Shown here one piece after another: positions 1 to 29,670 of a stretch of DNA of 40,327 nt; positions within the stretch are counted from its first letter, which is position 1; every line of letters begins with the position of its first letter. Origin of the DNA: Bdellovibrionota bacterium (GTDB lineage: Bacteria; Bdellovibrionota; Bdellovibrionia; Bdellovibrionales; JAEYZS01); the NCBI GenBank assembly GCA_963169805.1, contig CAUJDY010000008.1, forward strand, positions 1 to 40,327, read 5' to 3'. Both the position numbers and the translations under genes were made by a program. The notes below the pieces were generated by a model. It did not search any database, had not been told where the DNA came from, and worked only from the letters and a program-made list of their open reading frames with translations.

Positions 1-177
1 CAAATTTTTACCTGTAAGAGTGAGACTGGTTTTATGTTCAAACCCCTCCATTGAAAATGTAAAATGTCCTTTTAGCGGTCGGTCCAAAAACTTTTCTAAT
101 TTATTCAAAAGCTGTTGGCAGTGTTCCTCGACACTTTTTGAATGTTTCATTTTGATATATGTAAAATCACATTTCAT
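1..177 (-). CDS. hpf: Ribosome hibernation-promoting factor, N-terminal part
   Basis: This is the first 59 codons of a gene that continues past the left edge. The product starts MKCDFTYIKMKHSKSVEEHC and continues with a stretch rich in leucine and lysine followed by FLDRPLKGHF. This matches the start of the HPF/RaiA family, small proteins that bind the 30S subunit and drive 70S dimerisation or silencing in stationary phase. The start is supported by an AGGAG about eight bases upstream. In many proteobacteria hpf directly follows rpoN. Here the order is kept, but about 980 bp with two opposite-strand genes separate them, so hpf probably needs its own promoter in 178-400. The C-terminal half cannot be judged. 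Confidence 0.85.
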   Translation of the reverse strand, partial: MKCDFTYIKMKHSKSVEEHCQQLLNKLEKFLDRPLKGHFTFSMEGFEHKTSLTLTGKNL

Positions 178-277
178 GAGAGATCTCCTATTTGTAACAA
201 GATAGCGAGGCTATCATTTAGACTATCGGCGAGCTCTACATGCTTCTTGAATTAAGAGTATAAATCTTATGTCTCAT

Positions 278-293
278 TTTGAGATGTCTCAAA
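278..293. promoter_or_regulatory. 16-bp palindrome, possible activator binding site
   Basis: TTTGAGATGTCTCAAA has two perfect 7-base arms around TG. A further half-site ATGTCTCA begins at 269, 15 bases before the same octamer at 284. The palindrome centre lies about 105 bases upstream of the start point expected for the sigma-54-like promoter at 366-381, which is a usual distance for an enhancer-binding protein. It could also act on the divergent hpf gene. The role is inferred from symmetry and position only. Confidence 0.4.
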
Positions 294-365
294 GTTGATC
301 GTCAATTAAGGTCTTGGCAGCTGTCTAAAAGATAACGGCTAGACCCTTTTAATTTGCTAGTGCCA

Positions 366-381
366 TGGCCCGCACCTTGCA
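366..381 (+). promoter_or_regulatory. Sigma-54 (RpoN) type -24/-12 promoter
   Basis: TGGCCCGCACCTTGCA matches the sigma-54 consensus TGGCACG-N4-TTGCA at all but one defined base, with GG and GC separated by exactly 10 bases. Transcription would start near 391-393, leaving a leader of about 15 bases before the ATG at 408. It faces the two secreted-protein genes at 408 and 671. The gene for sigma-54 itself is the next gene on the other strand. Confidence 0.7.
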
Positions 382-407
382 ATTGAGAGAACTGTCGGGG
401 GACACTT

Positions 408-641
408 ATGATCAAAACAATAATTTTTTCTATGATACTTTTATCTCAAGCTTCAATAGCAGATGTATATTTACATATGCCAAGAGGTAGCTCTACAAGA
501 GCTCATTATTCTTATGGTGATGAAAACTACAATGAATGCAGCCAACAGCAACTTCAATGTGCTCGATATGTTTTATACAGAGGACAATACGTTTGTTCCC
601 AGTATGTCCGCACAGAAGTTATCCTAACTGAGTGCCAGTAA
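408..641 (+). CDS. Small secreted cysteine-containing protein
   Basis: The 77-residue product is of unknown family. It begins with a typical Sec signal peptide (MIKTIIFSMILLSQASIA, likely cut before DVY). The mature part is about 59 residues, rich in Tyr, Gln and Ser, with four cysteines (near residues 44, 51, 63 and 76) that could form two disulfides in the periplasm or outside. A GGGGGA stretch precedes the ATG by about six bases. The gene lies just downstream of a strong sigma-54-like promoter and 29 bp upstream of a lipoprotein gene on the same strand, so the two are probably co-transcribed. Coding status is supported by the signal peptide, ribosome site and promoter; function is not known. 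Confidence 0.7.
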   Translation: MIKTIIFSMILLSQASIADVYLHMPRGSSTRAHYSYGDENYNECSQQQLQCARYVLYRGQYVCSQYVRTEVILTECQ

Positions 642-670: not shown

Positions 671-1162
671 ATGAAATATCTAAAGTTATTTACACTCTTT
701 TCTTTCTCGGTTTTATTGATTTCTTGCAGCCAAAATAAAGAACCAGCAAGTGATGTAGGTCTCTTTGGAGATAACTCTAATGCTGCAAACGGCTCTGCAA
801 CAAACTCTAGTACAAACGATGGAAGCGGATCAAATCTAGGGAGCGGTGATTCTTCAGGGGCGTCAGGATCTAGCGGTTCTTCTGGGTCTGGCGGCAACTC
901 GAATGCTGGAGGAGGAAGCTCAACGACAACTCCAGCTCCACAAAAACTTGATTTCAACCGAGCTTTTACAATTGTTGAAGACTATGGAAATGGACTTGAA
1001 GGTAACTACGCAAACATCCAAGAATTTACGGACGCTGCAAATGCAGGGACTTTCACATCATGTATTTATGCAAGAAGACAAGGCGATACGACTGGTACAA
1101 GCAATACCTATGTTTATTTAGGCTTTGGGCCTTGCCTGACAATTCTATTTACTCAAAACTAG
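671..1162 (+). CDS. Lipoprotein with Ser/Gly/Asn-rich linker
   Basis: The product is a 163-residue predicted lipoprotein of unknown function. The signal peptide ends in a lipobox (LLIS-C, Cys about residue 19). Residues 35-85 are a low-complexity Ser/Gly/Asn/Ala linker, followed by a short C-terminal domain of about 70 residues with two cysteines (SCIYARR and GPCLTILF) that may pair. It probably forms a transcription unit with the secreted protein at 408. Its stop codon overlaps that of the convergent rpoN gene: the four bases CTAG at 1159-1162 end both genes. An opposite-strand reading of the repetitive linker is an artefact of its base composition. Confidence 0.75.
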   Translation: MKYLKLFTLFSFSVLLISCSQNKEPASDVGLFGDNSNAANGSATNSSTNDGSGSNLGSGDSSGASGSSGSSGSGGNSNAGGGSSTTTPAPQKLDFNRAFTIVEDYGNGLEGNYANIQEFTDAANAGTFTSCIYARRQGDTTGTSNTYVYLGFGPCLTILFTQN

Positions 1163-2580
1163 AACATCTTTTTACGTTTGCTCGAAGGCAAAACACCTAA
1201 AGCATCACGATATTTGGCTACTGTTCTTCGGGCAATCTGAATTCCTTCAGATTTAAGTTTATTTACGATTTCTTGGTCTGATAGTGGTTTTTTAGGATTC
1301 TCTTTTGTTACCAAATCTTTTATTTTTAGCTTCACAGATTCTGACGCTAAAGAATCTCCATCCGTTTTTGAAACACCAGAATTAAAGAAATACTTAAGTT
1401 CAAAAATTCCTTGAGGAGTATGAACGTATTTACTCGTTGTCACACGAGACACAGTCGACTCATGTATTCCAACGTCATTAGCTATATCTCTTAAAATCAT
1501 TGGTTTAATAAAAGCCGGGCCCTTTTCAAAAAATTCCTTCTGATGTTTAACAATACTTTCCGTGACTTTATAAATTGTTCTTTGTCTTTGATGTATGGAT
1601 TTAATTAGCCATACAGCACTCTTAAGTTTTTCTTTAATATAATCTTGAGTAACGTTATTTGAGTCTTTACCAGAGAGAATATTTTTGTATAGATTTGAGA
1701 CTCTCAACCGTGGCAATCCTTCTTCATTTAAAGAAATAGCAAAATCCTCACCCACTTGATAAACATACACGTCCGGAGTCACATACTGAGGCTCCTGTGT
1801 CATAAAGGCACGTCCCGGCTTTGGGTCCATATCATAGATAATCTTACACATTTCTACGATATCTTGGATGTCTCGGTTCATAGCCTTTGCAATTTTATCG
1901 TAATTTTTCTTCTCAAGATCTTTAAGGTGGTTCTGGATAAGCTCTACTATATCGTGAGTATCTTCTTGAATATGTTTTGCCTGAATCAAAAGACACTCAG
2001 CCAAATCTCTTGCGCCAACTCCTGGTGGATCGAACTCTTGAACAAAAGGTAAAATCTCTTCAAGGTCTTGGACTGTTATTCCCTCTTCTTTTGAGATTTC
2101 CTCGAATGGCGTTTTCACATAACCATCTTCATCTATATAATTCACTAGAATCGTAGCATGTTTTCTTTCTTCTTCGTTAAATCCGGAAAGGCTCACCTGC
2201 CACATTAAATAATCTATGAGCGACTGTTGCGTTGAGATCAGATTTTCATAGTTCATGATCTCATCGTGATCTCCACCATTACCAATAGGCGATGGTTTAT
2301 TTTGATTTTCTACGTAGGATTCCCAGTCGAATTCGTCTTGCTTAGTCGGATCTCTATCCTCTGTGACATTTGCCTCAGGTGCGGCTTCTACATTTTCTGC
2401 CGTTGCTTTTTCTGGTGCATCTGATGCTTCCTCAAGAACTGGATTTTCGTCAATCTCTTTACGGATAGCATTTTCTAACTCCATACGAGAAAGCTGTAAG
2501 AGCTTAATCGCTTGCTGAAGCTGTGGGGTCATTCTTAATTCAGCCGTTTGCTTTAATGATAATTTTTGATTTAATGCCAT
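1159..2580 (-). CDS. rpoN: RNA polymerase sigma-54 factor
   Basis: The 473-residue product has the usual length and all parts of sigma-54. The glutamine/leucine-rich activator-interacting region I covers about residues 4-50 (it includes MTPQLQQAIKLLQLSRMELE). An acidic region II follows at about 50-100, then the core-binding and DNA-binding domains. The diagnostic RpoN box ARRTVAKYRD is at residues 450-459. The protein directs RNA polymerase to -24/-12 promoters and needs AAA+ activators, one of which is encoded at 19564-20793. GGGGAAGAG precedes the ATG. It follows lptB at a 39-bp gap in the widespread lptC-lptB-rpoN order, so it is probably read with the LPS export genes. Confidence 0.97.
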   Translation of the reverse strand: MALNQKLSLKQTAELRMTPQLQQAIKLLQLSRMELENAIRKEIDENPVLEEASDAPEKATAENVEAAPEANVTEDRDPTKQDEFDWESYVENQNKPSPIGNGGDHDEIMNYENLISTQQSLIDYLMWQVSLSGFNEEERKHATILVNYIDEDGYVKTPFEEISKEEGITVQDLEEILPFVQEFDPPGVGARDLAECLLIQAKHIQEDTHDIVELIQNHLKDLEKKNYDKIAKAMNRDIQDIVEMCKIIYDMDPKPGRAFMTQEPQYVTPDVYVYQVGEDFAISLNEEGLPRLRVSNLYKNILSGKDSNNVTQDYIKEKLKSAVWLIKSIHQRQRTIYKVTESIVKHQKEFFEKGPAFIKPMILRDIANDVGIHESTVSRVTTSKYVHTPQGIFELKYFFNSGVSKTDGDSLASESVKLKIKDLVTKENPKKPLSDQEIVNKLKSEGIQIARRTVAKYRDALGVLPSSKRKKMF

Positions 2581-4491: not shown

Positions 4492-5199
4492 ATGACTGCC
4501 TATTGGTTTATATATTCAAAAGATGTTGTCAGTGGACCATTCACTACAGAAAAAGTAGAGAATGGTATCAAATCTAAGACATGGTCAACGGATTGCCTCG
4601 TTTGGTGGAAGGGACAAAAAGAGTGGATTACCCTCGTAGACTGGCAAAGAAATTTACCCACTATTCTTGATAGCTTTAAAACACGCATTCAAAAATCCAT
4701 ATGGTACGTTGAACATCTTGGAATGCAAAAAGGCCCCATGAACTCAACAGAGCTTCAAGGTTATATTATGTCCACCGGGATTCTCAACTCCTGCAGAGTT
4801 TGGACAATAGGAATGGATCGTTGGATGTATGTTTATGAAATACCAGATCTTGTAGAATTTTTTGGAGTTTCGCGCAGAAAAACAGCTCGCGCACCTATCA
4901 AGGGTCAACTGACCATTAAAAAAGATGACATTATTGTAGAAGGCCCAGCTGGATCAATTAGTACAGGCGGATTGGGTTTTCGCGATCTTTCAGGCTTACG
5001 TCCTGGCGATCATATCAGTTTAACACTAAGAAGCCCTCTTTTGATTGCACCAATTCACTCGCAAGGTAAAATAGTATATACTGCCGACAGAGGTTTTACT
5101 GGACTTCAATTTAATTTACTAAACGCAGAGAGTGAATCGACCATCGCAGACTATGTGAAGCGCTTTCAATCTCACGGAAAAATTCTAAAAGCCTCTTAA
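4492..5199 (+). CDS. Tandem GYF-like domains with C-terminal PilZ domain
   Basis: The 235-residue predicted cytoplasmic protein has no signal peptide or membrane segment. It begins with two GYF_2-type repeats: residues 2-50 (YWFIYSKDVVSGPFTTEKV, then a WWKGQKEW core) and about 70-120 (WYVEHLGMQKGPMNSTEL). The C-terminal 105 residues form a PilZ domain with the c-di-GMP-binding RxxxR motif in RRKTARAPIKG. The second motif, usually D/N-x-S-x-x-G, reads SISTGG here, so Ser replaces the acidic residue and binding may be altered. It is transcribed alone. The nearest large neighbours are the gliding stator genes, and GYF domains also occur in the M. xanthus gliding protein GltJ, so a link to motility control is possible but unproven. 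Confidence 0.8.
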   Translation: MTAYWFIYSKDVVSGPFTTEKVENGIKSKTWSTDCLVWWKGQKEWITLVDWQRNLPTILDSFKTRIQKSIWYVEHLGMQKGPMNSTELQGYIMSTGILNSCRVWTIGMDRWMYVYEIPDLVEFFGVSRRKTARAPIKGQLTIKKDDIIVEGPAGSISTGGLGFRDLSGLRPGDHISLTLRSPLLIAPIHSQGKIVYTADRGFTGLQFNLLNAESESTIADYVKRFQSHGKILKAS

Positions 5200-19563: not shown

Positions 19564-20793
19564 TCATTTTTTGAATACATGAACATTAATCTTATAGTGT
19601 TTAACTCGATCATAGAATGTGCTTTTCGGTATACCTAAATCTTCAGCTGTCTTCTTTTGATTTCCAAAATTCATAGCTAGTTTTTTAATAATAATCTCTC
19701 TTTCAATTTCTCGAATAATATTTTTTGTTTCTTTGCTAGGCTCAGAAGTGAGACTACTTTCTGAAGCGTGCCTTTGCAGAAACGGCTCAACATCTCTTGT
19801 TTGTATTTTTTGATTTGGATACTGAATCCGACATCTACTTACTAGATTTTTAAGTTCTCTTATGTTGCCAGGCCAACTGTGCTCTTTCAAGAAAGTGATT
19901 GTTTCAAAAGAGAATCTCACTTTCATTTCTCGTGCAAACTCGAAAAGAATTTTCTCAAAATCCTCTTTTCTTTCTCTAAGAGGAGGAACTTTAACTTGTA
20001 TAACGTTTAATCTATAAAATAAATCTAACCTAAATTCACCACGATAAACCTTCTCAAGTAAATTGTGATGAGTACATGCAACAATCCTACAGTTCGTTTG
20101 AATAACATGGTCACCACCAACAGGCCGCACCTCCTTATTTTCAATTGCCCTCAAAAGCTTAGGTTGTAAATCCAGAGGAAGATCCCCAATTTCATCCAAA
20201 ATAAGAGTTCCATTGCGTGCTTCTTCGAAGGCACCCTTTCTGTCTTGAGTTGCTCCTGTAAAGGAGCCTTTTACATGCCCAAACAACTCGCTTTCTGCCA
20301 GCGATGCCGTAAGGGCACTGCAGTTTACAGTTACAGCAGGGTACATACTTCTAGTTGAGAACTTATGAATGTACTGCGATATCTGCTCTTTTCCACTACC
20401 TGACTCTCCTAAGACCAAGACGGGTAAATCCGATTTTGCATAGCTAGGCATTCTTAAGATGACCTCATTCCAATGAGGATTATGACTTTTTAGCTTTTCA
20501 ATTTCAAAGATAGAAGACTGCTCTAAAAAGACAAACTCATATTTGCCTGCGCGAATAGTATCTCCAGGATTTAAGACGGCCGAACCAATCTTCTGTGTGT
20601 TCACATAAGTCCCTGTTTGTGAACGCAAATCCTGTATGTGGTATGTAATACCTTTTCTTAGGATTCTAAAGTGCTTGGCACACAATCCTTCTAAGTAGAT
20701 ATGGTTTTTCTCAGCAGAGCCAACCAGAACGTAATCTTCAAGTAAGTAGTCACGAACCTCCCCCTGATTAAATAGGCATATTTTAAAATTCAC
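19564..20793 (-). CDS. FHA-domain sigma-54-dependent transcription activator
   Basis: The 409-residue activator has an N-terminal FHA domain (residues 1-92) in place of a receiver. The AAA+ sigma-54 interaction domain follows: Walker A GESGSGKE at 129-136, a GSFTGA loop at 176-181 (Ser in place of the usual Ala), Walker B LILDE at 197-201 and an arginine-finger region FRLDLFYRLN. A Fis-type helix-turn-helix closes the chain (NQKKTAEDLGIPKSTFYDRV). In the FHA domain the conserved Arg and Ser are replaced (VLVGSAEKN and CAKHFRI), so phosphothreonine binding may be lost. It would act with RpoN encoded at 1159-2580. Its tail-to-tail neighbour is the FliL-like gene; its targets are unknown. Confidence 0.93.
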   Translation of the reverse strand: MNFKICLFNQGEVRDYLLEDYVLVGSAEKNHIYLEGLCAKHFRILRKGITYHIQDLRSQTGTYVNTQKIGSAVLNPGDTIRAGKYEFVFLEQSSIFEIEKLKSHNPHWNEVILRMPSYAKSDLPVLVLGESGSGKEQISQYIHKFSTRSMYPAVTVNCSALTASLAESELFGHVKGSFTGATQDRKGAFEEARNGTLILDEIGDLPLDLQPKLLRAIENKEVRPVGGDHVIQTNCRIVACTHHNLLEKVYRGEFRLDLFYRLNVIQVKVPPLRERKEDFEKILFEFAREMKVRFSFETITFLKEHSWPGNIRELKNLVSRCRIQYPNQKIQTRDVEPFLQRHASESSLTSEPSKETKNIIREIEREIIIKKLAMNFGNQKKTAEDLGIPKSTFYDRVKHYKINVHVFKK

Positions 20794-29330: not shown

Positions 29331-29670
29331 CCTCTTGTCTCCTTTTTTGGTTCGCATATGTAAACCGTTTTTATTTAAAATTTCGCTTCATAAACAAGAT
29401 CTCATTGTAAGTCTTAAATTATGAAACTTAATAATCCCTAAACCTAACTTTAATTTTCAAAACTTAGGTACAACATCGAAACCTAGAGCAATACTTGTAC
29501 CACTTTAAAAAAGCTCAAAAACTCCAAAGGTTTCAACGTTTCTGCGAAGAAGTTTTATACAAAATGATGACGAATTTAGCTACTAGAATGTAAATATTAT
29601 CTTGCTAGGTGCCAGGCACCTGGAAACGTTTTAGTGTTCGTTTCCAGGTGCCTGGCACCTATTGAATTTC
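29331..29670. other. Intergenic region between eno and the outer-membrane protein gene
   Basis: This is a gene-free stretch of 340 bp. It contains the leader of the outer-membrane protein gene and, at 29607-29660, the double palindrome listed separately. From 29340 to 29600 I see only AT-rich sequence that probably includes a promoter for the minus-strand gene, but no box clear enough to name. Confidence 0.5.
29607..29660. repeat. REP-like double palindrome downstream of eno
   Basis: Two 22-base arms (29607-29628 and 29639-29660) are perfect inverted copies around a 10-base loop. Each arm contains its own palindrome AGGTGCCAGGCACCT. The whole can form one long hairpin or two small ones, a layout typical of paired REP elements. 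It ends 11 bases from the eno stop and could act as a terminator or mRNA stabiliser. No other copy was noticed in this window. Confidence 0.85.

Follow-up and report, generated by a model that had tools for sequence, protein, structure and literature searches.

Which genes does the palindrome at positions 278-293 serve, and what kind of regulator would recognize it? It lies near the beginning of a stretch of 40,327 nucleotides (the window) that is the start of contig C8 in the 2.38-Mb draft genome of a Bdellovibrionota bacterium. The original prediction took the palindrome for an enhancer-binding-protein site belonging to the sigma-54-dependent gene of a small secreted protein, and the position of that gene next to rpoN as inviting the idea of a local regulon. 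The features concerned are as follows.

1-177, minus strand: hpf (ribosome hibernation promoting factor), N-terminal 59 codons; the contig end truncates the rest
224-250, minus strand: FliA/sigma-28-type promoter of hpf, TCAAG (250-246), N16, CCGATA (229-224)
272-284, no strand: site A, TCTCATTTTGAGA, core of the conserved, predicted operator GTCTCA-N3-TGAGAC
278-293, no strand: the originally described palindrome, TTTGAGATGTCTCAAA, comprising the right half of site A and a third half-site, TCTCA (287-291)
314-324, plus strand: site B, TTGGCAGCTGT, at exactly +42 counted from the start of site A
366-381, plus strand: sigma-54 -24/-12 element, TGGCCCGCACCTTGCA, with a predicted start at about 391-394
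397-401, plus strand: Shine-Dalgarno-like GGGGG, with an ATG 6 bases further on
408-641, plus strand: ORF for a small secreted four-cysteine protein of 77 codons, an orphan
671-1162, plus strand: ORF for a 163-codon lipoprotein with the lipobox LLISC, starting 29 bases past the first stop
1159-2580, minus strand: rpoN (sigma-54), with Pfam PF00309, PF04963 and PF04552

The sigma-54 element and its operon

The near-consensus -24/-12 element was found as described: at 366-381, GG (367-368) and GC (379-380) are separated by exactly ten bases, with one mismatch to TGGCACRNNNNTTGCW, and the element precedes the small secreted-protein gene by 27 bp. With one mismatch or fewer allowed, the genome contained 54 such sites, compared with 9 for the reversed-pattern control, so that a single near-consensus site has, position aside, about a one-in-six chance of being background. 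For those elements that an ORF follows, many of the predicted products had a signal peptide. The promoter at 366-381 is predicted to be active.

A second near-consensus element, TGGTACAAGTATTGCT, occurs in the window at 29487-29502 (minus strand), 130 bp ahead of a 291-codon ORF whose product begins like a signal peptide; at enhancer distance from this element, no good palindrome was found. The window also encodes, at 19564-20793 (minus strand, 409 codons), one of the ten clear sigma-54 activator ATPases of this genome, the N-terminus of which looks FHA-like by eye, and, at 4492-5199 (plus strand), a PilZ-domain protein that also has two GYF_2 stretches.

The ORF at 408-641 encodes the expected 77-residue secreted product, with a signal-peptide-like N-terminus, plausibly cleaved after ...SQASIA, and four cysteines from residue 44 on. 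This protein had also been thought to be probably a lipoprotein; its first cysteine is residue 44 and no lipobox was found in it, and it is the neighbor at 671-1162 that has one. Pfam and NCBIfam searches with the 77-residue protein gave no match, and no credible relative was found in 99 genomes; a single weak match in G098, which falls at a flagellin gene but in another reading frame, was dismissed. The 163-residue lipoprotein, which carries a Ser/Gly-rich linker and had no Pfam or NCBIfam family match above cut-off, is probably encoded by the second gene of an operon begun by 408-641. This operon is convergent with rpoN, ending against it, and the gene pair was absent from the rpoN locus in two same-family genomes (G001 and G002).

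The conserved unit of the palindrome

Both the perfect 16-bp palindrome and the extra half-site (TCTCA, at 272-276) were present, and the palindrome lay about 106 bp from the expected start, as claimed. The copy at 278-293 was the only one in the genome with zero mismatches. A genome scan for the 16-mer, as had been suggested, returned 11 copies with one mismatch or fewer, compared with 3 in the control. Nine of the 11 copies were inside genes, and the only other intergenic copy (C63:31003) lies upstream of the -24/-12 element of an SLT-family lytic transglycosylase gene. The composite of three half-sites, TCTCA-N-TTTGAGA-N3-CTCAAA, was found with zero mismatches only in the window and at C63:30997.

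The transglycosylase gene (L105:2173-2868, on contig C63 of this genome) has a sigma-54 promoter together with sites A and B. Its -24/-12 element was conserved in the orthologues of G002, G016 and G004, making four genomes with C63. The left dyad, TCTCA-N3-TGAKA, kept its position in G002 and was degenerate in G016 and G004, and the right half of the originally described palindrome was not kept in these three orthologues. Because orthologous promoters keep a TCTCA-N3-TGAGA-like sequence, and not the originally proposed motif TTTGAGA-N2-TCTCAAA, the 16-base palindrome was dropped as the unit in favor of a 5-N3-5 dyad with the core TCTCA-N3-TGAGA. The conserved unit, GTCTCA-N3-TGAGAC, is shifted relative to the palindrome first described, and it is built with what had been regarded as the extra half-site.

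The window and C63 also share site B, in that both carry TTGRCASSTGT at exactly +42, an offset that is identical in the G002 orthologue. The dyad and the -24 element are 94 bp apart in the window, compared with 127 bp both at C63 and in G002, and the two spacings differ by about three helical turns. The core of site B, ACA-N2-TGT, was present in 15 of 74 spacers, compared with 1.6 expected and a maximum of 7 in 200 shuffles, and was located mostly about 50, 60 or 80 bp ahead of the -24 element, a step of about 10 bp seen in small numbers. Site B may be a second contact.

Site A at sigma-54 promoters and across the order

The pairing of site A with sigma-54 promoters was evaluated by searching for TCTCA-N3-TGAGA with TGG-N9-TGC 83-113 bp downstream, the reversed pattern serving as control. 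This search returned 101 matches in 57 of 99 Bdellovibrionales genomes, compared with 5 for the control, an excess that is partly due to site A's own enrichment and that is measured against reversed patterns keeping composition only approximately; the flanking-base, spacer and offset-window tests are independent of that enrichment. Outside the query, a G preceded the dyad in 46 of 74 non-redundant cases and a C followed it in 39, and these conserved flanking bases define the full site as GTCTCA-N3-TGAGAC with an AT-rich center. A dyad about 80-150 bp upstream is thus recurrent at -24/-12 promoters, as would be expected of an enhancer-type site, and its distance from the promoter is variable (83-133 bp), unlike that of a strictly positioned contact.

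Site A was also enriched irrespective of promoter type. Six genomes contained 24, 19, 24, 18, 50 and 41 copies (controls: 5, 0, 4, 0, 2 and 5), with 24 copies in the genome studied here, and a 1.2-Mb reduced relative contained 0; genomes of 1.2-2.0 Mb in the order are mostly without site A. Counted over 97 genomes of the order, the full site GTCTCA-N3-TGAGAC had a mean of 7.2 copies each, and elsewhere in the phylum it was at background (mostly 0-1). About 110 of 187 candidate neighbors looked exported by a crude test that counted both flanks, so that not all of them are targets. Pfam and NCBIfam matches among the neighbors included transglycosylases, L,D-transpeptidases, flagellin, FliL and a mosaic adhesive trimer protein; gene starts in the relatives were derived from ORFs, not from annotation. 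Literature searches found no published description of the site A motif, the single match being an unrelated human Alu paper.

In two distant families (L303 and L273), site A was also seen in the spacer between divergent genes for thioredoxin and a receiver-domain protein. The latter is a receiver-DUF4388-DnaJ protein in G002; G013 has a similar arrangement, which the end of the stretch cuts.

Site A at sigma-28 promoters and upstream of hpf

On the minus strand, site A faces hpf. The N-terminus of the truncated hpf product reads MKCDFTYIK, compared with MKCEFTYIK in the G002 orthologue, and its position also matches. PF02482 matched the truncated piece at E=0.004, which is below the cut-off, and one A2 protein, from the set to which the full-length G002 orthologue belongs, matched PF02482 at 8.8e-15. 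Read toward hpf, site A (284-272) is followed by TCAAG-N16-CCGATA (250-224) and then by hpf, from 177. The FliA consensus mapped in the attack phase of B. bacteriovorus is TTAAG-N16-CCGATA, with CCGATA as the -10 box (PMC3627812); the hpf element agrees with it at 10 of 11 positions and in its exact spacing, as expected of a sigma-28 promoter.

This arrangement recurs throughout the order. Site A followed by CCGATA at 45-75 bp gave 230 matches in 72 of 99 genomes, compared with 5 for the control (read with the same two reservations as the sigma-54 search), and positions 224-284 of the window were among these matches. Site A paired more often with CCGATA boxes than with -24/-12 elements. In a complete Bdellovibrio genome, 13 of the 49 site-A copies had CCGATA at 35-110 bp, compared with 2 in an offset control; 28 had neither promoter signature at the thresholds used, and nine were deep in coding sequence.

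Upstream of hpf in relatives, TCTCA ranked first among all 1024 possible 5-N3-5 dyads, occurring in 9 of 21 regions compared with a mean of 0.2, and the palindrome is therefore part of a conserved hpf promoter region from which the plus-strand operon diverges. The site had been assigned to the secreted-protein gene as its target; it also lies upstream of hpf on the opposite strand, and is one of the 24 copies in the genome. Sigma-54 control of hpf was considered and rejected, as no quality GG-N10-GC was found between site A and hpf, and G002 had one score-4 match.

Comparison with published Bdellovibrio data

One of the genomes, G031, is what we take to be B. bacteriovorus HD100. A c-di-GMP riboswitch was located in it within the coordinates, and on the strand, published for merRNA (PMC3627812), so that positions in G031 can be taken as HD100 positions. 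In G031, site A precedes the CCGATA of flp1 by 68 bp; a response of the flp1 promoter to FliA was seen in E. coli (PMC5430801). An exact site A is also present at -92 relative to the start published for the attack-phase small RNA APsRNA7 (L474, G031:C1:3416200-3416900); of the eight published small-RNA starts tested, no other had an exact copy within 200 bases.

In the FliA regulon of B. bacteriovorus, TTAAG-N16-CCGATA precedes cell-surface, motility and exported-protein genes (Karunker et al. 2013, PMC3627812). Site A has in common with that regulon its concentration ahead of CCGATA boxes, that of flp1 among them, and it is upstream of APsRNA7 too. Unlike the signal of the FliA study, for which 50 bases upstream of starts were examined, site A is farther upstream and also marks sigma-54 promoters. 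The attack-phase transcriptome yielded the FliA signal and left the remaining third of attack-phase promoters without a strong motif (PMC3627812).

Which regulator would use site A

We propose, with a probability of roughly 0.6, that positions 272-293 hold one copy of an order-wide predicted operator between the divergent hpf (sigma-28) and secreted-protein (sigma-54) promoters, tied to the attack phase by a dimeric regulator. This regulator would bind site A and set both promoters. On the minus strand, where about 43 bp separate site A from the CCGATA (-10) of the hpf promoter downstream, it would fulfill its conserved, ancestral role; with site A 94 bp ahead of the -24 element on the plus strand, it would act on a promoter driving a lineage-specific operon for the small secreted protein and the lipoprotein. 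Most likely, the regulator would tie both promoters to the attack-phase (hunting, non-growing) program governed by FliA in Bdellovibrio, a timing that we extrapolate by analogy from Bdellovibrio to the organism of the draft genome. A protein probably binds site A, and we infer that it activates rather than represses.

The plus-strand arrangement resembles NtrC-family sigma-54 promoters in combining GG-N10-GC with a dyad at about 100 bp, and an NtrC-type enhancer-binding protein could accordingly recognize the palindrome and activate the 408 promoter or, more broadly, a FleQ-like protein could bind all copies. We regard this as unlikely. A conserved site at enhancer distance was indeed found, with the sigma-54 association described above, the genome encodes ten candidate activators, and several sigma-54 promoters have site B at an equal offset. 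However, the larger excess at CCGATA boxes argues against a dedicated sigma-54 enhancer: the dyad is common to sigma-28 promoters and occurs at hpf promoters without a good -24/-12 element, whereas classical enhancer-binding proteins work solely with sigma-54, and none of the genome's candidates was linked to site A. As promoter-paired copies of site A are more often at sigma-28 than at sigma-54 promoters, a classical enhancer-binding protein is disfavored. FleQ of Pseudomonas is a c-di-GMP-responsive AAA+ regulator at sigma-54 flagellar and other promoters, and a FleQ-like protein is a possible exception to the classical rule; by analogy, the likeness would consist of one regulator at two promoter classes and a GTC...GAC palindrome with an AT-rich center.

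It is rather improbable that the palindrome serves hpf alone and that the -24/-12-like element is a chance match before an orphan ORF. The site is conserved at hpf, about 9 of the 54 near-consensus elements are background by the control rate, and the 408 ORF has no relatives, but the orientation of the element, its distance from the ATG, the ribosome-binding site and the downstream signal peptide all fit, and site A, the third half-site and site B reproduce the offsets of the conserved transglycosylase promoter exactly. The local rpoN regulon, a circuit specific to the sigma-54 locus, has proximity in its favor; we give it hardly any credence, with site A found genome-wide, the gene pair missing beside rpoN in same-family genomes and the operon running against rpoN. 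Since site A is shared by two promoter types and lies between hpf and the secreted-protein operon, a shared regulator is indicated, rather than a private circuit of the rpoN neighborhood.

Several individual proteins were considered as site-A binders and rejected. The region upstream of pilA had no -24/-12 element and only a loose TTTCA-N3-TGAAA dyad, which argued against PilR. A TetR protein, a DUF4423 protein and the receiver-DUF4388-DnaJ protein, all encoded adjacent to site A, recurred too rarely and had no deciding DNA-binding domain for self-regulated binders.

Implications for the Bdellovibrionales

The switch between hunting and growing in predatory Bdellovibrio has been called largely unknown (PMC3627812). 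We see about even odds that GTCTCA-N3-TGAGAC is the putative operator of an undescribed global regulator of the Bdellovibrionales, acting at both the FliA and the sigma-54 promoters that serve exported proteins, motility and ribosome hibernation, and that this regulator would form a second layer of the attack/growth switch beside FliA, lost or thinned in reduced genomes. A hibernation factor and exported proteins would suit a non-growing hunting cell. With its order-wide enrichment and its ties to FliA and sigma-54, the site A palindrome offers a direct bait for the missing regulator, and the positions of site A provide a list of that regulator's likely targets.
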